Origin: Conexivisphaerales archaeon
Lineage (GTDB): Archaea > Thermoproteota > Nitrososphaeria > Conexivisphaerales > DTJL01
Assembly (NCBI GenBank): GCA_038728585.1
Contig: JAVYTR010000002.1
Span: 62,001 to 126,000, forward strand
DNA: 64,000 nucleotides
Direction of reading: 5' to 3'
Both the position numbers and the translations under genes were made by a program. The notes beneath the pieces were generated by a model. It searched no databases. It was not told the origin of the DNA and worked only from the letters and a program-made list of their open reading frames with translations. Below, one piece after another: positions 46,935-60,756 of this stretch (positions are counted from its first letter, which is position 1; each line of letters begins with the position of its first letter).

Positions 46935-48089
46935 ATGAAAAAGATACTGATAGCTGGAGGAGGGATAGGAGGTACAATAGTAGCTAACAGACTTGCCGAA
47001 AAGCTCAGACAAGAGATAGAAAGAGAAGAAGCTAGTATAACTGTCTTTGACAAAAGTGAGAAACACGTCTTTCAGCCGAGCCAGCTGCTTGTGGGAATGG
47101 GTCTAGAGAATACTTCAGAAATAGTAAGGAACGAGAAGGAGCTTTTGAATCCAAAGATAAACCTGAAAACCGGGACAGCAGGGGAATTGTCAAAGATAGA
47201 CGTCTCTAACCACTCGTTCATAACTGCAGACGGAAAGAAGCATGACTATGACTTCGCAGTGATAAGCACAGGCTCCACTCTGGATTGGGAGATGATCCCC
47301 GGGCTGAAGGAGGAGATGCTGACAGTCTGGGATATGGAAGGAGCTGTTAAGACCAGAGGAGCTATAGCTAACTTCTCCGGGGGGACGATAGTCTTCAACG
47401 TTGCCAGGCTTCCGCATAAATGTCCTGTAGGACCTCTCGAAGAGGTTCTCATGCTTGATGACTACCTGAGGAAGAGAAACCTGAGGGACAAGACAGACCT
47501 TGTCTACACTTATCCTATAGCAGGAGTGTTTGGTATACCTAACGTGAACAAAGTTATGACGAAGATGTTCGAGGAGAGAGGGATAAGGGTAATTTCTCCT
47601 TTCACGCTGAAGGAAGTCGATGCCAAGAACAAGACTATCGAGTCGAACGAAGGGGAGAAGCTGAAGTACGACCTGCTTCTGGGAGTACCTCCACACATGG
47701 GGGCAAAGATAATAGCTGATTCTGCTCTGGGTGATAGGAGGAACTGGATCCCGACTGACAAGAATACCCTGCAGATGAAGGACCATTCTGATGTCTTTGT
47801 TATGGGCGACACAACCGACATACCGATCTCCAAGGCAGGTTCGACTGCTGATTTTGAATCATATACAGTAGCTGAAAACGTAGCATCACAGGTTAGGGGG
47901 AATGACTCGAGAAAGGCATACGATGGATCAGTCTTCTGCTTTATTGCAACAGCTCTGGATAAGGCAACCTACATTAGGTTCAACTACTCAAATCCACCTG
48001 TCCCGCCACCTCCATCAAACATACACTGGCTGGCAAAGCTGGCTTACAACAGGCTGTATTGGAGCTTGACTGCCAAGGCGGTAGTCTAG
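46935..48089 (+). CDS. sqr: Sulfide:quinone oxidoreductase
   Basis: FAD enzyme on the cytoplasmic face of the membrane that oxidises sulfide to sulfane sulfur or polysulfide and reduces quinone. The FAD motif GGGIGGTIVANRL is at residues 8-20. Redox Cys candidates are in PHKCPVGP (near 163) and FCFIATA (near 335). An AISTGSTL-type segment and FVMGDTTDIP complete the two-dinucleotide fold. The C-terminal SNIHWLAKLAYNRLYW is an amphipathic membrane-binding tail. Length 384 is in range. Confidence 0.9.
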   Translation: MKKILIAGGGIGGTIVANRLAEKLRQEIEREEASITVFDKSEKHVFQPSQLLVGMGLENTSEIVRNEKELLNPKINLKTGTAGELSKIDVSNHSFITADGKKHDYDFAVISTGSTLDWEMIPGLKEEMLTVWDMEGAVKTRGAIANFSGGTIVFNVARLPHKCPVGPLEEVLMLDDYLRKRNLRDKTDLVYTYPIAGVFGIPNVNKVMTKMFEERGIRVISPFTLKEVDAKNKTIESNEGEKLKYDLLLGVPPHMGAKIIADSALGDRRNWIPTDKNTLQMKDHSDVFVMGDTTDIPISKAGSTADFESYTVAENVASQVRGNDSRKAYDGSVFCFIATALDKATYIRFNYSNPPVPPPPSNIHWLAKLAYNRLYWSLTAKAVV

Positions 48090-49174: not shown

Positions 49175-50323
49175 CTAGGTTAAAATTACGTCCTTCGCAG
49201 ATAGCACTTCTGCAACCTCAGGTCTGATTATTTCGCTAGGTATTGGCTTCCCTTCACTTATCAGCTTCCTTATCTTCGTCTGACTTGTGCTGACATGGTT
49301 ATCCTCTGGGTGAGGACAGACCTTCGAAGAGACCATTGTTGAGCAGATTCTGCAGTAAAAGGTCTCGTTATACTTGAGGGGCACAACACCAACATCGTAC
49401 TCGTCGAAAATTCTGTGCCCAGCATAAGGGTCATAGTAGCTTCCGACTCCTGCCTGGTCCCTGCCTACTATATAGTGAGAACAGCCATAATTTCTTCTGA
49501 CTATGGCATAAAAGAGCACAGCCTTTGGACCTGCGTACCTCATGCTTATAGAGAGTGAACCGAGGAGAACCCTGTCTTTGGGATAGTATTTTTCGACGAA
49601 GATTTGGTATGCCTTCATAATCACTTCAGGCCTGTAGTCTCCCTTCTTCAGCTTCCCAACAACCGGCTGGATAAAGAGGCCATCTATGTCGTCTCTTTCA
49701 AGAGTTATTCTCTGTATGTATTCGTGTGCAAGGTGTGGAGGATTTCTCGCCTGATATGCTGCCACATTCTTCCATCCCAGGTTTGAAAACCTCTCCCTGC
49801 TCTCCCTCGGTGACAACTCTAGACTAGTTACGGAAAGCGATAACCTTCTTAGCAGCTTCACTTTCCCTGCCACAGCACGCTCACCCATCGAGTACAGGTC
49901 AGCAACGTTGGGGTGGAGCGGGTCCTTTGTGCTGTAGACCTTTTCCGCCATCTCCGCTCTGTCCAATCTAAATACCTGTTCCACATGCAGAACTGCAAAG
50001 GGCTGACCGTTCAGGTCATCGATCAGAAGTTCATCGTTCTGTTCAGCTAACTTTGCCTGCATTTCATCGACAAGAAGGACTATCGGCATGGTCCAGGCCA
50101 GGCCGTTGCTCAGTCTGTTCTTGTTTATCACGCTGCTGTAATCGTCGGGCCCCATGAACCCTTCGAGAGGACTGTAAGCGCCGATTCCTATCTTTTCAGC
50201 ATCGTAAATATGGTCCTCTGCAGGTCTTATTCTTGGTATTTCACTCGATTGAGCCAGCAGCCTCTCAGCTTCCTTCTCAGTTGCAAAATTTTCGATAAGC
50301 CTTCCACCATAAGGCTCTATCAT
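49175..50323 (-). CDS. sat: Sulfate adenylyltransferase (ATP sulfurylase)
   Basis: Interconverts APS plus pyrophosphate with sulfate plus ATP. QARNPPHLAHEYIQ near residue 193 is the QxRNPxHxxH motif, and YAGPKAVLFYAIVRRNYGCSHYIVGRDQAG gives the second conserved region. A zinc-type Cys/His cluster (CRICSTMVSSKVCPHPEDNH) sits near the C-terminus as in archaeal enzymes. It follows aprA with a 1-nt gap. With AprBA and sHdr it most likely works toward sulfate and ATP. Confidence 0.95.
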   Translation of the reverse strand: MIEPYGGRLIENFATEKEAERLLAQSSEIPRIRPAEDHIYDAEKIGIGAYSPLEGFMGPDDYSSVINKNRLSNGLAWTMPIVLLVDEMQAKLAEQNDELLIDDLNGQPFAVLHVEQVFRLDRAEMAEKVYSTKDPLHPNVADLYSMGERAVAGKVKLLRRLSLSVTSLELSPRESRERFSNLGWKNVAAYQARNPPHLAHEYIQRITLERDDIDGLFIQPVVGKLKKGDYRPEVIMKAYQIFVEKYYPKDRVLLGSLSISMRYAGPKAVLFYAIVRRNYGCSHYIVGRDQAGVGSYYDPYAGHRIFDEYDVGVVPLKYNETFYCRICSTMVSSKVCPHPEDNHVSTSQTKIRKLISEGKPIPSEIIRPEVAEVLSAKDVILT

Positions 50324-50324
50324 G

Positions 50325-52169
50325 CTATTTCACTATGTGAATTACGGGGGCTGTGGAGAGAGTCCAAGTGCCTTTAACAGGGTCATACCTCGAATTGACA
50401 AACACATGCCAGTTCTCATCATCCAGCTTCGGATAGTCTGCTCTGTAATAGTAGCCTGGCCACCTTGTCTCCTTCCTGAAAAGTGTATGCCTTACTACAG
50501 CTTCGGCAGTCCAGACCCTATGATGAAGTTCCCAAGCTCTCTGCAGCTGGTGAAGGTCCTGAGCTGCAAGGCTTGACAGGTCTTCCTTAAGAAAGTTCAG
50601 GAGCTCGAGGGCTCTGTTCAGCATGAACTCGTTAGTTATGTACATCGTGCTCCACCCTCCAGCATATTCGTCCATTATCTTCTCAAGCCTCACCACACCC
50701 TGGTTCGGGTAGATGTAAAGAGGAGAGACTGTTCCTGCAACTATCTTGTTCTTCCCGACTTCGTAGTTCTCGAGCGGCTTGAAGACCTCCTGTTTGATCG
50801 TATCAACCTGCTGCCTATCAATGTCAGGCCTGTATTCTGAATGCTCCATTATGTATCTAACAGCAGCTTTGGCAGCCAGCCTGCCCTCGGTGAAAGAACC
50901 GGATGAGAACTTGTGAGCCGAGCCGCCAATCGTGTCTCCAGCCCCGAACAGTCCTTCAACTGTAGTCATTCTGTTGTAACCCCATCTGTACTGCTCTGGA
51001 GAGATATCTTCTGGCCCGCTTGCCCAAGCGCCTGAACAGGTAGCATGGGAGCCCATTATGTATGGCTCTGATGTCTGGAGCTCTGAAGGTGTCACCTTTG
51101 GGTCTATGTTCTGTGAGGCCCAGACTATCGACTGACTCATAGTCATGTCAAGAAAGTCTTCCCAGCCCAGCTCCTCCTTCTCTCGCGTATCGAGAACCTG
51201 TTCAGTATGGATGTAGATTGGACCCCTACCAGCCTTCATCTCTCTCAGCATTGAATCGTTTCTCAGACATGTAGGAAAAGGCTTGGCATCGACATAGCTT
51301 CCGTACAGCTCTCTCTGTTCATCGACATACTTCTTCTCGTATTCCTCTCCATAGGCGTTCTTCGCAACTGCCTTCAGAGCTAAGAACCAAGCCCCAACTG
51401 GACCGTATCCATCCTTGAACCTTGTCACAACCAGCCTGTTCTCCATCTGGGTCATCGTTGCCCCTACCCTTATCAGGAGTGCATAGGCTGAGCCAGTGCT
51501 CCATGGAGCATACCATGTCCTCCCTGCACCTTCGCCAACAGATTTCGGCCTGTAGACATGAGTTGCTCCTCCAGCAGAGACGATCACAGCTTTTGCCCTG
51601 AAGACGTAAAAAGTTCCATCTCTTACACTGAACCCGGCTGCTCCAGAAATTCTGTTTCTGTTCGAAGCATCTGTTAGAAGATGAGTCACCATTATCCTGT
51701 TGTAAACTTCTGATGCAGACTTCTGGGCTGCCTCCGCAACTATGGGCTTATATGATTCGCCGTGTATCAGTATCTGCCATCTTCCCTCTCTCTTGTACCT
51801 GCCCGTCTTCTCGTCGTAAATTATAGGCAGACCCCATTCCTCAAAGAGATGAACTGTAGAATCGACATGTCTTGCAATGTCAAGAACTAGGTCTTCCCTG
51901 ACTAATCCCATCAGGTCGCTTCTGGTATATCTGACAAAATCTTCTGGTGTATTTTCGTTCCACCTCATCCCCATGTAGCAGTTTATGGCTGATAGGCCCA
52001 TCGCAACCGCCCCACTCCTCTCAATGTTTGCCTTCTCGACAACAACTATCTTCAGCTTCCTCCCCCAGTACCTAGCTTCGTAGGCAGCACCACAGCCTGC
52101 CATCCCTCCTCCTATTATCAGCAAGTCGCTATCGACAAACCTTGTAGAGGTTGATGTACGCACACTCAT
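50325..52169 (-). CDS. aprA: Adenylylsulfate reductase subunit alpha
   Basis: FAD subunit that interconverts APS with sulfite and AMP. The FAD fold begins LLIIGGGMAGCGAAYEARYWG near residue 16. Conserved substrate-pocket stretches include YMGMRWNENTPEDFV, SAGGATHVYRPKSVGEGAGRTWY and GAGDTIGGSAHKFSSGSFTEGR. Length 614 is normal. In sulfur oxidisers it runs toward APS; here the absence of dissimilatory sulfite reductase genes and the presence of sHdr favour that direction. Confidence 0.95.
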   Translation of the reverse strand: MSVRTSTSTRFVDSDLLIIGGGMAGCGAAYEARYWGRKLKIVVVEKANIERSGAVAMGLSAINCYMGMRWNENTPEDFVRYTRSDLMGLVREDLVLDIARHVDSTVHLFEEWGLPIIYDEKTGRYKREGRWQILIHGESYKPIVAEAAQKSASEVYNRIMVTHLLTDASNRNRISGAAGFSVRDGTFYVFRAKAVIVSAGGATHVYRPKSVGEGAGRTWYAPWSTGSAYALLIRVGATMTQMENRLVVTRFKDGYGPVGAWFLALKAVAKNAYGEEYEKKYVDEQRELYGSYVDAKPFPTCLRNDSMLREMKAGRGPIYIHTEQVLDTREKEELGWEDFLDMTMSQSIVWASQNIDPKVTPSELQTSEPYIMGSHATCSGAWASGPEDISPEQYRWGYNRMTTVEGLFGAGDTIGGSAHKFSSGSFTEGRLAAKAAVRYIMEHSEYRPDIDRQQVDTIKQEVFKPLENYEVGKNKIVAGTVSPLYIYPNQGVVRLEKIMDEYAGGWSTMYITNEFMLNRALELLNFLKEDLSSLAAQDLHQLQRAWELHHRVWTAEAVVRHTLFRKETRWPGYYYRADYPKLDDENWHVFVNSRYDPVKGTWTLSTAPVIHIVK

Positions 52170-52615
52170 TTCTGTACCACCTGCTCCTTAGGAGGAAGCT
52201 TGAGATACTCTGGTTCATGAGAAAGAAGCTGGGTGTTCAGCTCGGCTTCTCTGAGAGGAAAGGTATCTGGAGGCTTTATTGAACCAAAAGGCGTTGTCCT
52301 TATCGGGAAGGTGAAATTCTTGACGCTGCCGTTTCTGTACTTAACCTGCCAGGAGACCTTTCCCTTCTCAGGTTCTCTCAGCACTGTGAGTGCATGACCA
52401 AGAGGGCAGAAATCTGCGTAACCCCTCATATCAATCGCATGCTGAGGACAGGCTTTGACGCATGAGTAGCATTCCCAGCAGTAGTCTGGCTCTATGTTGT
52501 AAGCTCTTCTGAGCTTCCTGTCTATGTGCATTATGTCACTCGGGCAGATCTCGACGCATTTACCGCAACCATCACAGATGCTTATATCGACAAACGTTGG
52601 CAAACCAGCTTTCAC
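52166..52615 (-). CDS. aprB: Adenylylsulfate reductase subunit beta
   Basis: Iron-sulfur subunit carrying two [4Fe-4S] clusters. CDGCGKCVEICP (near residue 14) and CWECYSCVKACP (near 47) with CPLGH supply the ligands. The C-terminal tail, which wraps AprA in known structures, is present; total length 149. It overlaps both neighbours by 4 nt. Confidence 0.95.
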   Translation of the reverse strand: MKAGLPTFVDISICDGCGKCVEICPSDIMHIDRKLRRAYNIEPDYCWECYSCVKACPQHAIDMRGYADFCPLGHALTVLREPEKGKVSWQVKYRNGSVKNFTFPIRTTPFGSIKPPDTFPLREAELNTQLLSHEPEYLKLPPKEQVVQK

Positions 52616-53340
52616 CTCTCAGCCTTGGTTTCGACCGGCTTGGGAAGGTTGCTTATACCCTTCTCTTCATCTATCCTGTCAAGTATGAATAGTCCAGCCT
52701 TGTAAAATGAATGAGGGAACTTTGTCCAGTGTGTAAGTGCGAACATCAAAGTTATTAGAAGAAAGTATGCATAAATTGTTACTTGCGATAGGAAAGCAAG
52801 GGATAAAGCAGAAAACAGGTAGGCAGCTATATCGAACGCTGATATTGCGATAAGGTTGATTATGAAGGCATCAGAGTAGTTCAGTGAAAATGTAGAATTG
52901 CCTTCAAACTTGACGTTCACCCTCTGAGGAAGGTACCAGAGTGTCCCGACAATAAGAGATAGATTTCCGACGAGCTGTGAAATCATGAATGGGTTTGACG
53001 GAGAAACGTAGAATTTCCCAGCAAGACCTGTCGAAGATACAAGTATTGATAGTACGATTATAATGAACCCCCACAGTGTCAGCAGGTGGGAAGCTCTTCT
53101 CGCTGGACTGCATTTTCCCAGCGGGTAAGAAGAAGCAATATCAATCAGAATCGCCTTTGCAAGCGCAGAAGAGATGCTTCCCTTCGCTTCTGACGCTTCC
53201 AGGCTCCTTCTCTGTCTTCTCATGAACTCAAGCTTCTTGTCAAAAACAAAATCGTAGGCAAAGGCAGCAAGAAAAATCAGCAGGGATGATAGGACGTAAA
53301 TCTGCAGGTAGAGAACGGGTATTAAAGGAAACGCAGCCAA
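52612..53340 (-). CDS. Membrane anchor of APS reductase, AprM/QmoC-like
   Basis: An integral membrane protein with about five to six hydrophobic segments. The cytoplasmic loop CSPARRASHLLTLWGFI resembles the haem-binding region of the HdrE/QmoC/AprM membrane family, and a later LTHWTKFPHSFYK contains two further His. First gene of the apr-sat operon, overlapping aprB by 4 nt. It would connect AprBA to the quinone pool. Haem ligands and the AprM name are inferred. TTG start. It has a paralogue-like counterpart at 59977. Confidence 0.7.
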   Translation of the reverse strand: MAAFPLIPVLYLQIYVLSSLLIFLAAFAYDFVFDKKLEFMRRQRRSLEASEAKGSISSALAKAILIDIASSYPLGKCSPARRASHLLTLWGFIIIVLSILVSSTGLAGKFYVSPSNPFMISQLVGNLSLIVGTLWYLPQRVNVKFEGNSTFSLNYSDAFIINLIAISAFDIAAYLFSALSLAFLSQVTIYAYFLLITLMFALTHWTKFPHSFYKAGLFILDRIDEEKGISNLPKPVETKAER

Positions 53341-53396
53341 ATCTCACTTGCTAATGTAAGAAGTGCTATTAAGTATTTCTATTATGCAAAAATTGC

Positions 53397-53418
53397 AATA
53401 TTAGATATCCTTAATATG
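53397..53418. promoter_or_regulatory. Candidate operator ATATTA-N8-TAATAT upstream of apr-sat
   Basis: AATATTA-N8-TAATATG, a perfect 6-bp inverted repeat (ATATTA/TAATAT) with an 8-nt spacer, lies 57-78 nt upstream of the membrane-anchor gene that starts the apr-sat operon. The same pattern recurs at 54225 and 56301. The downstream ArsR-family gene (53477-53791) is the natural candidate regulator. Confidence 0.5.
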
Positions 53419-53476
53419 ATTTCCAGAATTTCTTGCTCGGTGTGTGCACCAATTTTGGCATGAGCAGTCATTCTGA

Positions 53477-53791
53477 CTATCTGGTTGACTGAAGTATCCT
53501 TGCCTCTGCTATCCTTCTCTCTCTAACTATCTGGTCAACAAGGTCATAGGCCTTCAGAATTCTTTCATCTGCTATGCTGTAATACACCAGCCTGCCCTCC
53601 TTCCTTGTCTTGACTATACCCAGCCTTCTGAGCATAGCTAGGTGTTGAGAGATGGTTGATTGGCTGGTATGAAGCTGCCTCTGGAGCTGCGATACAGTCT
53701 TTCCCCCTTCTCTGAAGACATCTAGCAAGGCTAACCTCAGAGGATGGGAGAATATCTTGCAGAATTCAGCGTGCATCTCGTATGCCTTCAT
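53477..53791 (-). CDS. ArsR-family transcriptional regulator
   Basis: A 104-residue winged helix repressor of the ArsR/SmtB family: HPLRLALLDVFREGGKTVSQLQRQL, STISQHLAMLRRLGIV (recognition helix near residues 45-60), and the wing TRKEGRLVYYSI. It has only one Cys (residue 11, EFCKIFSHP), not the Cys pair of the sulfane-sulfur sensors SqrR/BigR/sHdrR, so its ligand is uncertain. Its place in the middle of the sulfur island makes it the likely local regulator. Confidence 0.88.
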   Translation of the reverse strand: MKAYEMHAEFCKIFSHPLRLALLDVFREGGKTVSQLQRQLHTSQSTISQHLAMLRRLGIVKTRKEGRLVYYSIADERILKAYDLVDQIVRERRIAEARILQSTR

Positions 53792-53891
53792 GTTTCTTAC
53801 AGTCAGACTAAAGCACCTCCAATTCGTAACTACTGTGTAAAATCAAAAAGAATGCAGATTTTCTATCGGTCAGTGACATAGCTTTTTCCTA

Positions 53892-54143
53892 TCACTTCAA
53901 CCTTCTTATAAGAAATCTGTAGACCTTCGGTGTTTCATTCAGCTCTTCCACAGATACCAGCTCGTTTCCTGTTATCCTAGCCCAGGCAGCAAGGTCAGGC
54001 CTTGAGCCCGGGTCAGTAGCAAGAACTTCAAGCAGTTCTCCTACCTGTATCTCCTTTATCGCTGCACTTGTCTTAAGGACTGGGACCGGACACAGCAGGC
54101 CCTTGGTGTCCAGAACCTTAACGGGGTTGTTTTGGGTCGTCAA
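53892..54143 (-). CDS. tusA: TusA sulfur carrier protein
   Basis: An 83-residue TusA with the full active-site motif in GLLCPVPVLKTSAAI (Cys near residue 19). It binds sulfane sulfur as a persulfide and hands it to DsrE proteins or the sHdr complex. Divergent from the dsrE gene at 54253. A TATA box (ATTTAAATA region, 54175-54185) precedes the TTG start. Confidence 0.92.
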   Translation of the reverse strand: MTTQNNPVKVLDTKGLLCPVPVLKTSAAIKEIQVGELLEVLATDPGSRPDLAAWARITGNELVSVEELNETPKVYRFLIRRLK

Positions 54144-54224
54144 ATTCTAACATTAAACGGTTGTAAATACGTAATATTTAAATTAATTGGAAATGACAAT
54201 GAAACAACTGCACTAGAAAGGTTT

Positions 54225-54246
54225 AATATTATCATATTCTAATATG
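54225..54246. promoter_or_regulatory. Candidate operator ATATTA-N8-TAATAT at dsrE/tusA
   Basis: AATATTA-N8-TAATATG again, with perfect 6-bp arms. TTTAATATTA within it is also the probable TATA box of dsrE, centred 27 nt before the ATG at 54253, so a bound repressor would block initiation. The site is also upstream of the divergent tusA. Confidence 0.5.
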
Positions 54247-54252
54247 CCTACA

Positions 54253-54684
54253 ATGCAATCAACAGGCCAAAAGAATAGACTTATTATGGTTGCAAGCAGA
54301 GGAACTGCTGACGGTCTCTACCCTGCACTTATACTAGCCACCACTGCAGCAGCTCAGAATATGCCAGTAGATATCTACTTTACATTCGGAGGAATGAAGT
54401 TGCTCACAAAGGGGGTTGCGGAGAGCATAAAACCATCAGTTGACCTTGGTCTTTCGAAGGAAGAGCTGAACTCGCTTCTGACCAAGGGTGGTATGCCAAG
54501 CCTACTTGACATGCTGAGAGCAGCAAAGCAGGCAGGTGTTAAGATACACGCCTGCTCGCCAACGATGGCTCTCTTCGGAATGACTGAAAAGGACTTGACA
54601 GCTGAGCTGTGCGATGATGTTATAGGTGCATCAACCTTCCTGGAGCTTGCTAGAGACCCTAACGCTGTTACTCTCTTCATCTAG
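54253..54684 (+). CDS. DsrE-family protein, sHdr-associated (DsrE3-like)
   Basis: A DsrE-fold protein with a putative active Cys in IHACSPTMALFGM near residue 101 and a second Cys in ELCDD. Hdr-linked DsrE3A proteins exchange thiosulfonate with TusA, whose gene lies divergently 100 nt away. I take the second ATG (54253) from the TATA position; the frame also has an ATG at 54244. Followed by T-tracts. Confidence 0.85.
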   Translation: MQSTGQKNRLIMVASRGTADGLYPALILATTAAAQNMPVDIYFTFGGMKLLTKGVAESIKPSVDLGLSKEELNSLLTKGGMPSLLDMLRAAKQAGVKIHACSPTMALFGMTEKDLTAELCDDVIGASTFLELARDPNAVTLFI

Positions 54685-54693
54685 ATGTTGTAT

Positions 54694-54713
54694 GTTTTAA
54701 TTTTATTTTTTAT
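54694..54713 (+). terminator. Oligo-T terminator after dsrE
   Basis: TTTTAATTTTATTTTTTAT-like tract 10-30 nt after the stop codon. Confidence 0.45.
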
Positions 54714-54718
54714 CCAAC

Positions 54719-55393
54719 TTATGTAATTATGAAGTAGCCTTCCTTCTTCATGATGAAAATCACGGAGTCAATGACTTGCTGGAAGGTAATACCTGGCATC
54801 CAGGTTTCCAAGTTCGCAACTTCTGGAGAGGCGGGTGGAGGGATACAAAGGCTGTTCAGCGTCTTCAGGTTACTGTTCAGCAGAAGCGTACCGTGGACCA
54901 GAAGACATCTTAAGCCGGACCTTGCTGCCAAGCCTGAAACCTTCTTGCCATCAACCTCTATTCTGTTGGGTGGGGCGAAGTAAGCTCTTAGACCGAGATG
55001 AACAAGTGCTTCTATCATGAACCTCGAACCCTGCTGAAAGATCTTTTCAGGGGACCTGAACCGTCCGTTCGTCTTCAGGAAGAGGCTCCAGTTCAGGTTT
55101 CCTTTATCATGATAGACAACCCCTCCTCCAGTAAGCCTCCTGTAGACTGGAATCTTCATCTCCTCAGCAAGCTTCTCATCGTACCAACCATATTTAGGAC
55201 TCCTTATCTGTCCTGCTACAAGGCATTCGTCATTCACCCAGAAGTACAGAGTTTCTGGAGAGTTTCCGTTTTCCACATCGAAGAAGGTCGTCTTCTCTGT
55301 AAGCAGGTTGAGCTGCGGGTCTTTTGACTGGGATAGTATGACCTTCAGTATCTTGCCGGTAGAGGAGGGTGCATCTTCTCCCATAGGAAGCAC
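54719..55393 (-). CDS. Lipoate-protein ligase, sulfur-oxidation type
   Basis: Attaches lipoate or octanoate to the adjacent lipoate-binding protein. RRLTGGGVVYHDKGNLNWS near residue 88 is the lipoate-site motif, and KKVSGLAARSG carries the catalytic Lys. Length 224 matches catalytic-domain-only LplA. GTG at 55393 or ATG at 55384 could start it. It is downstream of lbpA in the same operon, which supports the sLpl role known in sHdr organisms. Confidence 0.88.
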   Translation of the reverse strand: MLPMGEDAPSSTGKILKVILSQSKDPQLNLLTEKTTFFDVENGNSPETLYFWVNDECLVAGQIRSPKYGWYDEKLAEEMKIPVYRRLTGGGVVYHDKGNLNWSLFLKTNGRFRSPEKIFQQGSRFMIEALVHLGLRAYFAPPNRIEVDGKKVSGLAARSGLRCLLVHGTLLLNSNLKTLNSLCIPPPASPEVANLETWMPGITFQQVIDSVIFIMKKEGYFIIT

Positions 55394-55428
55394 TTCTTAC
55401 CACCTGATTCTTATTTTTGATTATGATG

Positions 55429-55869
55429 CTACTTTCCGCATTCTATTCCCCATTCTTCTATTATCTGCTTATACCTTTCCGCAGCATCTTTTGCCTGAAG
55501 CAGGTGAACTTTTTCTTCGTTCGCCTTTGACGGCCTGATCTTCAGCACCCAGGTGCTATACGGGTCAGAATTAATCGCTGAAGGCTGTGCCTTGATTACA
55601 GGGTTAACCTCTACAACAGTCCCGCTGAGGGGAGCTCTCATAGGACCCATGTACTTGGCGCTTTCAACCGTTGCTGCTATCGCTCCTCTTTCGAGGTTTG
55701 TGCCTGCTTCCTTAACCTTGATGTATATTATCTCTCCAGCATACGCTTGGCCAGGGTCTGTAGCCCCTATTATAGCAACATCAGACTCCAGCCTTACCCA
55801 CACATGGTATTCAACATCGTACAGCAGTCCTTCGGGGAACCTGCAGCCTTTGTATTCATTGTCAGCCAT
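55429..55869 (-). CDS. lbpA: Lipoate-binding protein LbpA (GcvH-like)
   Basis: A lipoyl-domain protein resembling GcvH. The lipoylated Lys is in TVESAKYMGP (Lys72), inside the family beta-hairpin. Length 146 is like LbpA, which carries sulfur intermediates for the sHdr complex, more than the housekeeping H protein. Its neighbours are dsrE, a lipoate ligase and sHdr genes. A glycine-cleavage role with GcvPA/PB elsewhere in the window cannot be excluded. Confidence 0.88.
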   Translation of the reverse strand: MADNEYKGCRFPEGLLYDVEYHVWVRLESDVAIIGATDPGQAYAGEIIYIKVKEAGTNLERGAIAATVESAKYMGPMRAPLSGTVVEVNPVIKAQPSAINSDPYSTWVLKIRPSKANEEKVHLLQAKDAAERYKQIIEEWGIECGK

Positions 55870-55881
55870 AGGGGATCGCTC

Positions 55882-56259
55882 CTAAAAGTAAAGCACAGCG
55901 GTTTGAGGGTCTGATGCCATCTCTATCAGCGTGACTGCTCCTGCAAAGTCAACACCTTCAGGCAGGTCCCCTTCGTGCATGTCCCATATCACCTTCGCCG
56001 AAGTGCTGCAGCACAGCAGCTTTGCTCCGTTCCTCATTGCAAGGTCGATGACCTTCTTCAACGGTTCACCACCCTCTGTTGTCCTCAGGTTATCTGCTAC
56101 ACCCTTTTTCAGGAGTGATGGCCCCTCTGCCAGAAAGAACATGTAGGTTTCATACCCCATGGATGCGCTGGCAGCTGCGTAGTAAAAAGGGGTGAATGCC
56201 TTCTTCGGTTCCGAAGCACCTGTGCTAACAACAAAAAGAAACCTCTTCTTTTGCTCCAT
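55882..56259 (-). CDS. DsrE-family protein
   Basis: Third DsrE-fold protein of the island, 125 residues. Putative active Cys pair in KLLCCSTSAKVIW near residues 88-89. It heads the operon with lbpA and the lipoate ligase, 12 nt apart, and is divergent from hdrC1. A TATA box (ATTATAAATAT on the minus strand, 56284-56294) lies about 30 nt upstream of the ATG. Confidence 0.85.
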   Translation of the reverse strand: MEQKKRFLFVVSTGASEPKKAFTPFYYAAASASMGYETYMFFLAEGPSLLKKGVADNLRTTEGGEPLKKVIDLAMRNGAKLLCCSTSAKVIWDMHEGDLPEGVDFAGAVTLIEMASDPQTAVLYF

Positions 56260-56300
56260 GACTTACAACCCATAACAGAAAGATATTTATAATCCCTTCG

Positions 56301-56321
56301 AATATTAGGATTTCCTAATGG
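56301..56321. promoter_or_regulatory. Candidate operator between dsrE-lbpA and hdrC1
   Basis: AATATTA-N8-TAATGG. Within it ATTAGGA-TT-TCCTAAT is a perfect 7-bp inverted repeat. It sits directly upstream of the dsrE TATA box in the divergent region that also feeds the sHdr operon, and shares the AATATTA-N8-TAAT frame with the sites at 53397 and 54225. Confidence 0.5.
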
Positions 56322-56406: not shown

Positions 56407-57174
56407 TTGAGTCTGTCGAAGAAAGTGAGCAGGATGCTGCAGAGGCTGAACGAAGACGGATGGCACTATGGTGGACTGCCAGGACTGCAATGGGAAGCAG
56501 AGAATGCAAGACAAGCTGACAGGCGATTGATAAGGGAGATAGCTGATGAGCTGAGAAGCGATGTAAGGTTTGAGGAGTTTTACCATGCATGCATAAACTG
56601 CGGAAACTGCACATCGAAATGCCCACCTTTCAGGCTTGTTGACTTTGAACCGAGAATTGTGGTGCAGAAGGTGATGCACAGTAAAGATGAGCCTGAACTT
56701 CTTTACCAGATGATGGACCAGTACATCTGGTCCTGCTTTCAGTGCTATTCCTGCTGGGAGGTCTGTCCTGCACACAACAACCCAGGCGGGCTTGTAGCGA
56801 TTCTGAAGGAGATAGCTGTAAGGCATGGGCTGAATTCTGCCAAGAAAGCTCTTGAACCGTACAGCAAGATAGTGTACAAGATAATGACTACAGGAACTCA
56901 GATAACACCAGACATGCATACATCTATTGCTCTGTTCAGGGACTGGGGACCTCACAAGGCAGAGCTGGCCAAGAACATAAGGGCAGAAAGGGCTGCTGTA
57001 CCTGTAGAAACTATGGCAGGCGTGATGGATAAGTCCTGGAGGGTTGACGATGAGACTATGAAAGAGCTGATGTTCATAGAGAAAGAGGCAGGAGTATTTG
57101 ATTCTGTTGAAAAGACGCTGAAGGATGTAACGGAGATGGTAAAGGATACTGCTAAGGAGGCTGGTGTAGAGTAA
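56407..57174 (+). CDS. hdrC1: sHdr complex subunit HdrC1
   Basis: Iron-sulfur electron-transfer subunit of the sulfur-oxidising heterodisulfide reductase-like complex. Two [4Fe-4S] ferredoxin motifs: CINCGNCTSKCP (near residue 60) and CFQCYSCWEVCP (near 110). The C-terminal 100 residues are helical, and total length is 255. TTG start (an ATG at 56434 is possible). It overlaps hdrB1 by 1 nt. Confidence 0.88.
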   Translation: MSLSKKVSRMLQRLNEDGWHYGGLPGLQWEAENARQADRRLIREIADELRSDVRFEEFYHACINCGNCTSKCPPFRLVDFEPRIVVQKVMHSKDEPELLYQMMDQYIWSCFQCYSCWEVCPAHNNPGGLVAILKEIAVRHGLNSAKKALEPYSKIVYKIMTTGTQITPDMHTSIALFRDWGPHKAELAKNIRAERAAVPVETMAGVMDKSWRVDDETMKELMFIEKEAGVFDSVEKTLKDVTEMVKDTAKEAGVE

Positions 57175-58475
57175 TGGCTTCTGATAGCTCGGTAATAGAG
57201 CTTGGTAAGGGAGAGCAGGTTGAGATGAGCAGAGAAGATGTCCAGCTGTTTGAAAGACTATCATCGGAGAGAAGGGCAAGGCTAGCAATGGGGACAACCG
57301 AAGATTACCTCAGAATGCTCGAAAAGATGAGGGAGCTTGAGAAGAAGGGCGAGATAATAGTGCATCACGTAGAGGAGGACTACAAGCCCAAAGTTGTCAA
57401 AACTCTCAGCAACAGGCAGAAGAAGATACCCACAGAAGAAACCTGGCAGCATAAATCATGCGGCCAGTGCGGCCACATACCAGGCTACATATCAGCATTA
57501 TACTGGATAATGTCAGAGCTCTCCGTACCTTTTGTCGATGATACAAACCAGACATCATGTACAGCCTGGAACTATTATGGCTCGGGCACCTCTAACTCTG
57601 TTGCTCTGTCTGCAGTTTTCCTGAGGAACATGCACGTCGCCTGGGAGAAGAACGCCTATCCCCTCATTCACTGCGGAACAAGCTATGGGGATTACAAGGA
57701 GTGCAGGTTTCTGGTGGTGATGAGTGAAGAGATCAGGCTAAAAGTGAAGTCAATACTCAACAAGATAGGCAGGGATATAGTCATACCTGAAGAGCTTGTT
57801 CACTACAGTGAATGGCTGCACGTAATGAGGGAAAGGATAGCTGAAAGGCAGAAGCTTGATTATTCTCAGGTGAAAGCTGCTGTGCATCCTGCCTGTCATA
57901 CATACAAGCTGATGGCCGAAGACTATACGTATGATGAAAACATACTTGGTGGTACAAGGCCAGCACCTACATCCAGCATAATCCTTGCGCTCGGTGCCAA
58001 GCTGGTAGACTATAGTACTTGGTATGATTGCTGCGGTTTCGGCTTCAGACATATACTGACAGAAAGAGAGATTGCCAGGTCTTTTGCATACTTCAGGAAG
58101 ATCAGGCCTGTTGTGAGAGAAACAGGGGCAGATGTCTTGCTGACACACGATACAGGCTGCGTGACAACCCTCGACAAGAGCCAGATTGTAGCTATGGCTC
58201 ATGGCTACAAGGAGACCATTCCAGTCATCTCAGACAGTCAATTTGCAGCTCTGGCCATGGGTGCTCATCCCTTCAAGGTCTGCCAGCTTCAGTGGCATCT
58301 AGCAGACTGGAAGCCTTTCCTCAGCAAGATTGGGATAGATTGGCAGGAGGCTGAGAAGGAGTACAAAGAATACATAGAATCCATAAAGAAGGGGGCGAAG
58401 CCTTCGTTCATCCGGTCTGCACCCAGGAGACTGCAGCCCAGGGTTAATGTGAAGTTTTCCAAGGTGGGAGAATGA
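57174..58475 (+). CDS. hdrB1: sHdr complex subunit HdrB1
   Basis: Putative catalytic subunit with CCG-type cysteine domains. Cys-bearing segments: SCGQCGH (near residue 95), SCTAWN, IHCGTSY, HPACHTY, YDCCGFGF (near 285) and THDTGCVTT (near 325). The last lacks the second Cys of a CxxC, and the first domain has no CC pair, so the cluster ligation differs from classical HdrB. At 433 residues it has an N-terminal extension of about 90 residues and a basic C-terminal tail. Confidence 0.85.
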   Translation: MASDSSVIELGKGEQVEMSREDVQLFERLSSERRARLAMGTTEDYLRMLEKMRELEKKGEIIVHHVEEDYKPKVVKTLSNRQKKIPTEETWQHKSCGQCGHIPGYISALYWIMSELSVPFVDDTNQTSCTAWNYYGSGTSNSVALSAVFLRNMHVAWEKNAYPLIHCGTSYGDYKECRFLVVMSEEIRLKVKSILNKIGRDIVIPEELVHYSEWLHVMRERIAERQKLDYSQVKAAVHPACHTYKLMAEDYTYDENILGGTRPAPTSSIILALGAKLVDYSTWYDCCGFGFRHILTEREIARSFAYFRKIRPVVRETGADVLLTHDTGCVTTLDKSQIVAMAHGYKETIPVISDSQFAALAMGAHPFKVCQLQWHLADWKPFLSKIGIDWQEAEKEYKEYIESIKKGAKPSFIRSAPRRLQPRVNVKFSKVGE

Positions 58476-59524
58476 GTAAGCAGACAGATAATCAGGTTCT
58501 CGTAGTAGGAGCAGGTCCTGCAGGGTTGAGGGCTGCGATGGACCTTGCAGAATTTGGCATCCACGTGCTGCTTGTGGAGAAGCGGGGAGAGCTGGGAGGA
58601 GCTCCGACAAGGTGGAAGTACCATTCCCTAGCTCCTGACTTCACCCCTACCGAACAGGTTCTTGGTCCCATGATAGAATTCTGTGAAAGTTCAGAGCTTG
58701 TGGAGGTGAAGAAGAACTGCACCATCACTGAGTTTGGTGGAGAAGCAGGAAACTTCAGAGTTACGATCAAGTCACCAGAGGGGACAGAAAGGAGAAATGT
58801 ATCTGCAGTTATAGTTGCCACGGGGTTTGAACATTTTGATGCAAGCGTAGACCCCAGATACAGCTATGGCAAGGCGCCAAACGTTATAGGGATAAACGAG
58901 CTTGAAGTGATGCTCAGTCAGGGGAAGGTGACAGGGCACGATGGCAAGGTACCAAAAAGGGTTGCATTTGTCTTCTGCGTTGGTTCGAGAGACAGGTCAA
59001 CTAACCCTTGGTGCTGCACTGTATGCTGCGGGGTGAGCATAAAACAGGCGATAGAGCTGAAGCAATTGCTGAAGGATGTTCAGGTCTATATGATCTACAT
59101 GGACATCAGGACTGTAGGCCTGTGGGAGAAGCTGTACTGGGATAGCATGGAGAAATACGGTATAAACTACATAAGAGGGAGAGTTGGTGAGGTCTACTAC
59201 ACAGGGGAGAAGCTGCTGGTCAAGGGCGAAGATACGCTCGTCAGAGGGCCTTTCGAAGTACTTTTCGATATGGTGGTTCTTGCAGTTGGTATTGAGCCTG
59301 GAGAAGGGACAAAGCAGATATCGAAGCTGCTTGGGCTCAGGGTTAACGAATACGGCTTTCTTGCTCCCAGAATTCCTAACGTGCACTTCGATTCAGGGAA
59401 GGAAGGAATCTACCTTGCAGGTGCATGTGTAGCTCCCATGTCGGTAGAGGAGAGCATAGCCGAAGGCTCAGCAGCAGCGATGCAGGCTGCGAAGATGGTT
59501 GCAAAGTTGAAGGTGAGAGTTTGA
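58472..59524 (+). CDS. hdrA: sHdr complex subunit HdrA
   Basis: FAD-binding core of the sHdr complex. The dinucleotide motif VVGAGPAGLRAAMDL begins near residue 10, an ATGFEHFD segment follows, and the HdrA-type cluster motif is CVGSRD...CCTVCCG (Cys near 169 and 180-185). At 350 residues it matches the short sHdrA, without the ferredoxin modules of methanogen HdrA. Overlaps both neighbours by 4 nt. Confidence 0.92.
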   Translation: MSKQTDNQVLVVGAGPAGLRAAMDLAEFGIHVLLVEKRGELGGAPTRWKYHSLAPDFTPTEQVLGPMIEFCESSELVEVKKNCTITEFGGEAGNFRVTIKSPEGTERRNVSAVIVATGFEHFDASVDPRYSYGKAPNVIGINELEVMLSQGKVTGHDGKVPKRVAFVFCVGSRDRSTNPWCCTVCCGVSIKQAIELKQLLKDVQVYMIYMDIRTVGLWEKLYWDSMEKYGINYIRGRVGEVYYTGEKLLVKGEDTLVRGPFEVLFDMVVLAVGIEPGEGTKQISKLLGLRVNEYGFLAPRIPNVHFDSGKEGIYLAGACVAPMSVEESIAEGSAAAMQAAKMVAKLKVRV

Positions 59525-59976
59525 CGGAAGAGAAGGAGAAGGATGAGAAGGGGAAGTTCATTATTGAGAGAAGGTACGTCGATGATGACAGAATAATAGA
59601 GCCAGAGAAGCTGGAGGTAGGGGGTATAGACATATCAGGTAGATGGGGTACACTTGTATTACCCAGGACGATAGAGGATTTTGATACATCGATCTACGAA
59701 AGGGTTCAGGAGCTGCCAAGAGGGGAGAATATAGGCAAATGCTGGCAGTGCGGAAACTGCACGGCTGTATGCCCCGTCGCCCATGCTCATCCTGAGTTCA
59801 ACCCCAGATATCTGATACATGTGGTCAGGATGGGATACAAGGCTGAGATAAACAGGCTGAAGGAATCAGTTTACCTCTGTTCAGGGTGCGGTCTATGCAG
59901 CGCTGCCTGTCCCAAGGGCGTCGACCCGCAGGGAGTCATGATAGCAATGAGCATAGCATTCAAGGCGAAGGAGTAA
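59521..59976 (+). CDS. hdrC2: sHdr complex subunit HdrC2
   Basis: Second HdrC-type subunit with CWQCGNCTAVCP (near residue 74) and CSGCGLCSAACP (near 120), each a [4Fe-4S] site. A longer frame from 59425 exists, but its first 32 codons are the hdrA gene in another frame. I use the TTG at 59521, which overlaps the hdrA stop by 4 nt as elsewhere in this operon. The first 12 residues are Lys/Glu-rich. Length 151. Confidence 0.88.
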   Translation: MTEEKEKDEKGKFIIERRYVDDDRIIEPEKLEVGGIDISGRWGTLVLPRTIEDFDTSIYERVQELPRGENIGKCWQCGNCTAVCPVAHAHPEFNPRYLIHVVRMGYKAEINRLKESVYLCSGCGLCSAACPKGVDPQGVMIAMSIAFKAKE

Positions 59977-60756
59977 ATGCATTTGCTCGCTACTCTAGCA
60001 TTTTACATCATACTGCCCAGCTCTGTGGTCAACCCATACCTGCTTGAATTATTCCTTGCCTTGCTAGCTGTAATTTCATTCGTTATGCTATACAGGAGAA
60101 TCAAAGGATGGCATGTCGAGTTCACACCTCTTTCACTGCTCGGCAAAGTCAGCGCAAGGAAAGGTTCAGATATGGAAAGAGTATCCATTAGCAAAAAGCT
60201 TTCGATATTGGCAGGTGTAACTTTCAGAGATATACTGCTTCTCAGAAGAGCTGGTGCATGGTGCGAAGAAGATATTCATACAGCTGGAAGGGGCATGCTG
60301 ATGTGGGGTTTTGGTCTTCTTGTGATTGTAAGCTTCATAGGTTTCATCCTTGACCCATCCATGTCGTCCTATGCTATTCAGTACCCTATGAAATATTTAC
60401 TTGCAGCGTCCAAAGCTATTATTGCACTTGGAGCAACAGTGCTGCTGCTGAGGAGACTCCTTTACAGAAACAGGAGGATTTCAACCGATAAGCACACATG
60501 GATACTTCAGTCAGTCTTCCTATTCATTGGCATAAGCGGTCTTCTAGCAGATTTAGCATCTTTTGGAGCGAGTCTTTTTCTATTCGAAGTCTTTTACTTG
60601 CTCTATTTATCTTCTTTCTCAGCCTTCCTGCTGTACTATCCGTTCAGTGAACTTGCTTTCCTGATATGGAAGGGTTCTCTTCTGACCCAGGAAAGCTTTG
60701 AGGAGCAGCTGAAATTAGCGATAAAGAGTGGGAAGTCTTTTGGAAGCAGTGGATAA
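59977..60756 (+). CDS. HdrE/QmoC-like membrane subunit
   Basis: A membrane protein with five to six hydrophobic segments (near residues 5-40, 107-125, 138-160, 175-230). The loop CEEDIHTAGRGMLMWGFG resembles the corresponding region of the AprM/QmoC-like protein at 52612, so the two are probably homologous. The gene follows hdrC2 with no gap. An HdrC plus HdrE pair equals the two halves of QmoC, suggesting a membrane anchor for this sHdr complex in place of HdrB2, which is absent. Confidence 0.7.
   Translation: MHLLATLAFYIILPSSVVNPYLLELFLALLAVISFVMLYRRIKGWHVEFTPLSLLGKVSARKGSDMERVSISKKLSILAGVTFRDILLLRRAGAWCEEDIHTAGRGMLMWGFGLLVIVSFIGFILDPSMSSYAIQYPMKYLLAASKAIIALGATVLLLRRLLYRNRRISTDKHTWILQSVFLFIGISGLLADLASFGASLFLFEVFYLLYLSSFSAFLLYYPFSELAFLIWKGSLLTQESFEEQLKLAIKSGKSFGSSG

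Follow-up and report, generated by a model that had tools for sequence, protein, structure and literature searches.

How does an archaeon govern a set of genes whose content points to sulfur oxidation? The question is raised by a stretch of 64,000 nucleotides (hereafter the window) from a Conexivisphaerales archaeon (assembly GCA_038728585.1, contig JAVYTR010000002.1, positions 62,001 to 126,000), in which three inverted repeats of the form ATATTA-N8-TAAT stand in sulfur-gene promoters, with a gene for a small ArsR-family protein (arsR, 53477-53791, minus strand) encoded between them. We predict that the repeats are operators bound by a dimer of this protein, which would control a single sulfur-oxidation regulon, most likely by repression. 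We hold this reading, drawn from sequence comparison, with considerable confidence, and regard the ArsR protein encoded between the sites as the best candidate to bind the motif.

Three inverted repeats in sulfur-gene promoters

All three repeats, with their identical spacer length of 8 bp, are present as a preliminary description of this DNA had written them. Predicted operator site 1 (53398-53417, ATATTA-GATATCCT-TAATAT) lies upstream of an operon made up of a qmoC-like gene, aprB, aprA and sat; predicted site 2 (54226-54245, ATATTA-TCATATTC-TAATAT) lies in the divergent promoter of tusA-arsR and dsrE2; and predicted site 3 (56302-56321, ATATTA-GGATTTCC-TAATGG) in that of dsrE and hdrC1. None is assigned to a strand, and at sites 1 and 2 the pattern matches on both. 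The promoters had been named correctly as those of apr-sat, dsrE/tusA and dsrE-lbpA/hdrC1, except that the operon behind site 1 opens with the qmoC-like gene, followed by aprB, aprA and sat. A search of the 64-kb window found no further copy of exact ATATTA-N8-TAAT.

Could such repeats be AT-rich promoter background, TATA-like elements readable on both strands that resemble operators by chance? The arms consist of A and T throughout, and site 2 overlaps a TATA-like element (54222-54230, plus strand, TTTAATATT), the putative TATA element of dsrE2. Within the window there are seven strand-matches with at most one mismatch against 2.8 expected, a number reached by 2 of 100 shuffles. Across the 1.93-Mb genome, counts with one mismatch lean towards chance: the 64+66 strand matches are as frequent as the 61+74 of a reversed control, so that the one-mismatch genome search proposed earlier cannot discriminate. 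The exact form, by contrast, is rare. It occurs at seven distinct places in the genome, four intergenic and three within genes as judged by open reading frame, and three of the four intergenic copies are the three sulfur promoters, within 3 kb of each other. The fully symmetric 12-base form, ATATTA-N8-TAATAT, has exactly two copies in the genome, both in the sulfur cluster (sites 1 and 2).

Shuffling the three promoters individually gave p=0.001, 0.001 and 0.07, and among spacings from 4 to 12 a spacing of 8 had the highest summed score over them. For the promoters combined, dinucleotide shuffles gave about 1e-5 in the window, a figure biased because the motif was derived from those same sites, and 1e-4 and 5e-5 in the related genomes G002 and G001, whose promoters are homologous to those of the window.

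Distinct TATA elements are recognisable near sites 1 and 3, which speaks against chance likeness. The putative core promoter of the qmoC-like operon (53367-53380, minus strand, AGAAATACTTAATA) lies 17 bp from site 1 and is conserved in three genomes; a putative TATA element at 56284-56293 (TATTTATAAT, not assigned to a strand) has leaderless spacing to dsrE on the minus strand, may also serve hdrC1 on the plus strand, and is conserved in G000-G003.

The pattern of conservation, which touches the arms and not the neighbouring bases, also speaks against chance likeness. Four genomes of family f1 were compared: that of the window (G000), G001, G002 and G003. Each has an arsR ortholog within the cluster or close to it, with identities of 81, 73 and 69%. 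At the qmoC promoter G000, G002 (ATATTC-N8-TAATAT) and G001 (ATATTA-N8-GAATAT) keep both half-sites and the 8-bp spacing, and in all three the operator stands exactly 17 bp from AGAAATA(C/T)TTAATA, while spacer and linker have diverged. Site 2 is perfect, and in the same place, in G000 and G002. At the dsrE/hdrC1 promoter the four genomes share a conserved stretch of about 45 bp (TATTTATAA-nn-CTTCGA-operator), whose flanks have not been kept; in G003 both arms of the site are altered in a matched way, to ATTG-N8-CAAT.

Operator-like sites also lie outside the cluster. The fourth intergenic copy in the window's genome (L008:1501-1520) stands between an HdrD-like gene and a divergent dihydrolipoyl dehydrogenase gene whose product could serve LbpA. 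It looked like a regulon member, but the site is not kept ahead of the related genes of G001 and G002. In G002 a perfect operator-like site (L173:1501-1520) stands before a hypothetical gene and a TauE/SafE-like permease, which may also belong to the regulon.

The probable operator among ArsR relatives across the phylum

A profile built from six ArsR proteins was run on 398 genomes of the phylum, and 19 loci were examined. Operons of the order dsrE-tusA-sqr-arsR, closed by the regulator gene, occur in families f19, f24, f39 and f51, most of them with the operator ahead of the first gene; in f37 and f60 arsR comes after an HdrD/DsrK-like gene, and in most f12 genomes after a secreted protein of unknown function. 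The dsrE-tusA-sqr-arsR arrangement recurs at L112:5700-8155 and at L145, L146, L148, L149, L152, L154, L155, L156 and L158.

The variant ATATTM-N8-KAATAT lies mostly 15-75 bp ahead of the first gene of the relatives' operons. Within 175 bp around that gene it matches perfectly at 8 of 20 loci, and at 12 of 20 in 11 or more of its 12 positions, whereas any other spacing from 3 to 13 yields zero to two perfect matches among the same loci. These figures are weakened by the fact that the motif was widened (A to M, T to K) after the relatives had been seen, and whole genomes were therefore searched as a check. In six of them (G106, G178, G262, G359, G246 and G419) the site at the arsR operon is the sole match in the genome, and in G221 it is one of two. 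G365 has 11 matches against 13 for the control, an uninformative count at a very AT-rich locus, and in G085, G298 and G003 the whole-genome search gave no perfect match at the arsR operon. Exact matches are thus rare and fall on ArsR-linked promoters, and a spacing of 8 alone is enriched. The spacing comparison in 20 loci and the whole-genome searches largely refute the explanation by chance, which we now consider highly improbable.

The aligned sites also show that the spacer is not wholly free. Its sequences do differ, as had been pointed out, but at position 9 of the 20-mer, which played no part in finding the sites, 42 of 48 half-sites (24 sites) have A. The operator is therefore better described as a 20-bp palindrome near ATATTMGAATATTCKAATAT.

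Real operators might still belong to another regulator, co-inherited with the sulfur genes. Such a case could be made from shdr clusters that come with a related ArsR and have no motif, as in G292, where the cluster is complete and the operator was not found. The motif, however, tracks the ArsR group into otherwise unrelated operons. In the f12 loci L147, L150, L151 and L157 it lies upstream of a secreted protein (MKTWKIA...) followed by an ArsR without Cys11, and in G365 (L162:5886-5905) between arsR and a divergent rhodanese-like open reading frame. We consider a different regulator improbable. Very probably, then, it is the operator of this archaeal group of ArsR proteins, since it is shared by the operons of the relatives, is often the genome's only copy and is enriched at spacing 8 alone.

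Besides G292, several observations weigh against assigning the sites to this protein. The dsrE2-promoter site is absent from G001, and G003 has one degenerate site only. The 100 bp ahead of arsR contained no operator site, although site 2 would serve that gene if tusA and arsR form one transcript. Orthologous sites and loci of the same family are, moreover, non-independent observations. Farther afield, the shdr promoter of G063 gives a best match of 9 of 12. The motif does not occur at the corresponding promoters of three Marsarchaeota/Caldarchaeum shdr loci.

At the corresponding promoter of Marsarchaeota G1 (L059:9183-9200) another inverted repeat, ATTAC-N8-GTAAT, sits next to the TATA element of dsrE; the search found no close ArsR relative in that genome.

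The putative regulator and its known counterparts

The product of arsR is a 104-residue winged helix-turn-helix protein whose membership of the ArsR/SmtB family is clear (HTH_5, 48.4 bits against a cut-off of 22; NF033788, 81.4 bits against 55). In its predicted fold (mean predicted local distance difference test score, pLDDT, 86) the recognition helix spans residues 44-56 and Cys11, its only cysteine, lies in helix 1. The model matches Rv0081, SmtB, SqrR and BigR, and the nearest solved relatives by sequence are SqrR, Rv0081, BigR, HlyU, SmtB and NolR; the NCBI model TsoR gave a weak match only. In the four f1 members Cys11 is invariant, as is the recognition-helix core QST-x-SQHL but for one residue.

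In the tree, the shdr-linked ArsR proteins from three families group in a single clade (97/94), separate from the sqr-operon proteins, most of which carry Cys11 and Cys82, at places that differ from the bacterial SqrR pair. The idea that Cys11 marks sulfur-linked ArsR proteins was rejected: it is missing from f12 members without sulfur genes, but also from tusA-sqr-linked members of f39.

In bacteria, ArsR proteins are already known to regulate shdr genes (PMC12423496), and the closest parallel is sHdrR/SoxR of Hyphomicrobium denitrificans (PMC12423496, PMC10451225), where an ArsR-type gene stands with shdr/lbpA genes and is inferred to control them. The window's arsR likewise lies in the shdr cluster. 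The bacterial regulators sHdrR, SoxR, SqrR and BigR have two conserved cysteines in common (PMC12423496), and in sHdrR the sensing pair is Cys50 and Cys116. The archaeal protein lacks both and has the single Cys11, it would work on archaeal promoters, and no operator was found in the 100 bp before its own gene. The earlier proposal that it controls sulfur oxidation as sHdrR does is thus upheld in part: there is a putative operator with this ArsR as the best candidate to bind it, but the two sHdrR cysteines are missing and it is not shown to sense sulfur in the same way. The sHdrR paper itself notes that many shdr-linked ArsR proteins are without the two cysteines and may work differently (PMC12423496). 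We conclude that the window protein is not a bacterial-type sHdrR, and that it may nevertheless work like sHdrR as a repressor of shdr genes.

Its likeness to SqrR of Rhodobacter capsulatus and to YgaV/BigR lies in the fold, the winged helix being about 32% identical, and extends to DNA: the deduced SqrR site, ATTC-N8-GAAT (PMC9774250), has two ATT half-sites 8 bp apart, as does ATTM-N8-KAAT here. The cysteine pair that forms a tetrasulfide in SqrR/BigR is absent, with Asp24 at the first SqrR cysteine position and no cysteine in the last (C-terminal) helix, and the score against the BigR equivalog, 56.5 bits, falls below its cut-off of 155. NolR of Sinorhizobium shows the same combination of an ArsR fold without the cysteine pair, and its site, (A/T)TTAG-N9-A(T/A) (PMC8960804), resembles the ATTAG half-sites of sites 1 and 3; NolR is bacterial and regulates nodulation genes. 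The NolR and SqrR sites share the half-site with the window operator, and nearly the spacing. Among archaea, SurR of Pyrococcus is a winged-helix sulfur response regulator with a CxxC motif and an operator of its own that governs sulfur reduction. The window protein is likewise an archaeal winged-helix regulator, but its single cysteine leaves no room for a CxxC redox motif.

Proposed mode of control and the predicted sulfur regulon

In the mechanism we propose, an ArsR dimer would bind the 20-bp palindrome, whose half-sites lie about one helical turn apart, and would release it upon a shift in cellular sulfur status. A TATA-like element lies under the operator or immediately before it at dsrE2 and in the majority of related operons, so that the dimer, once bound, would keep out TBP/TFB or RNA polymerase. 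Repression is most likely the mode of action.

The same protein might instead act mainly as an activator, or repress some promoters and activate others. The putative TATA elements of qmoC and dsrE lie downstream of sites 1 and 3, whose centres are about 64 and about 48 bp upstream of the inferred leaderless transcript starts. This position would also suit an activator, and archaeal activators do use such upstream placement, so activation may apply at these two promoters. The related sqr operons and dsrE2, however, show the classical repressor layout, with the operator overlapping or following the TATA-like element, and the close relatives SqrR and BigR are repressors. We consider activation unlikely overall, and control by repression remains our preferred reading.

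The regulon so predicted would comprise three groups of genes. Behind site 1, on the minus strand, are the qmoC-like membrane protein gene (52612-53340; a weak QmoC match, below the curated cut-off), which is the first gene of the apr-sat operon, aprB (52166-52615), aprA (50325-52169; TIGR02061, 964 bits) and sat (49175-50323). Site 2 would serve tusA (53892-54143, minus strand), which lies upstream of arsR on the same strand, and the dsrE-family gene dsrE2 (54244-54684, plus strand), which may actually begin at the ATG at 54253. From site 3, dsrE (55882-56259), lbpA (55429-55869), encoding a GcvH-like lipoate-binding protein, and an lplA-like lipoate ligase gene (54719-55393) run on the minus strand, and hdrC1 (56407-57174), hdrB1 (57174-58475), hdrA (58472-59524) and hdrC2 (59425-59976; true start probably near 59524) on the plus strand. 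Together these products would oxidise sulfane sulfur to sulfite and sulfate.

The shdr order C1-B1-A-C2 is followed on the plus strand by a gene for a QmoC-like membrane protein (59977-60756), and no obvious shdrH or shdrB2 follows hdrC2 and this gene; the cluster may represent an sHdr system of a variant, membrane-linked kind. A candidate sqr (46935-48089) matches SQR below the model's cut-off, and dsrA was not found in the window's genome. We infer sulfur oxidation from this gene set, the candidate sqr and the lack of a dsrA.

Established observations are the sites and how they are conserved, the spacing between the arms, and the association of operator and ArsR throughout the phylum. Binding and repression, as well as a sulfur-related signal and a role for Cys11, would follow from them by inference. 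A broader picture, which we offer as a tentative possibility, is of a phylum-wide archaeal ArsR family that runs both the sqr and the shdr-apr branches of sulfur oxidation from one 20-bp operator and senses sulfur through cysteines in novel positions, Cys11 of helix 1 together with Cys82 of the last helix in the sqr branch, or Cys11 alone in the shdr branch.

Our search of the literature, made among open-licence papers, found no description of this archaeal regulator or its operator, and archaeal control of the sHdr and AprBA-Sat sulfur-oxidation genes seems to be undescribed there. With a defined operator and a small regulator recurring in several archaeal families, the question can be put to the test, even where the organisms are uncultured, with synthetic DNA and the purified protein of 104 residues. 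ArsR proteins that lack the bacterial cysteine pair and yet would act on the same half-site geometry may also bear on how sulfur sensing evolved.

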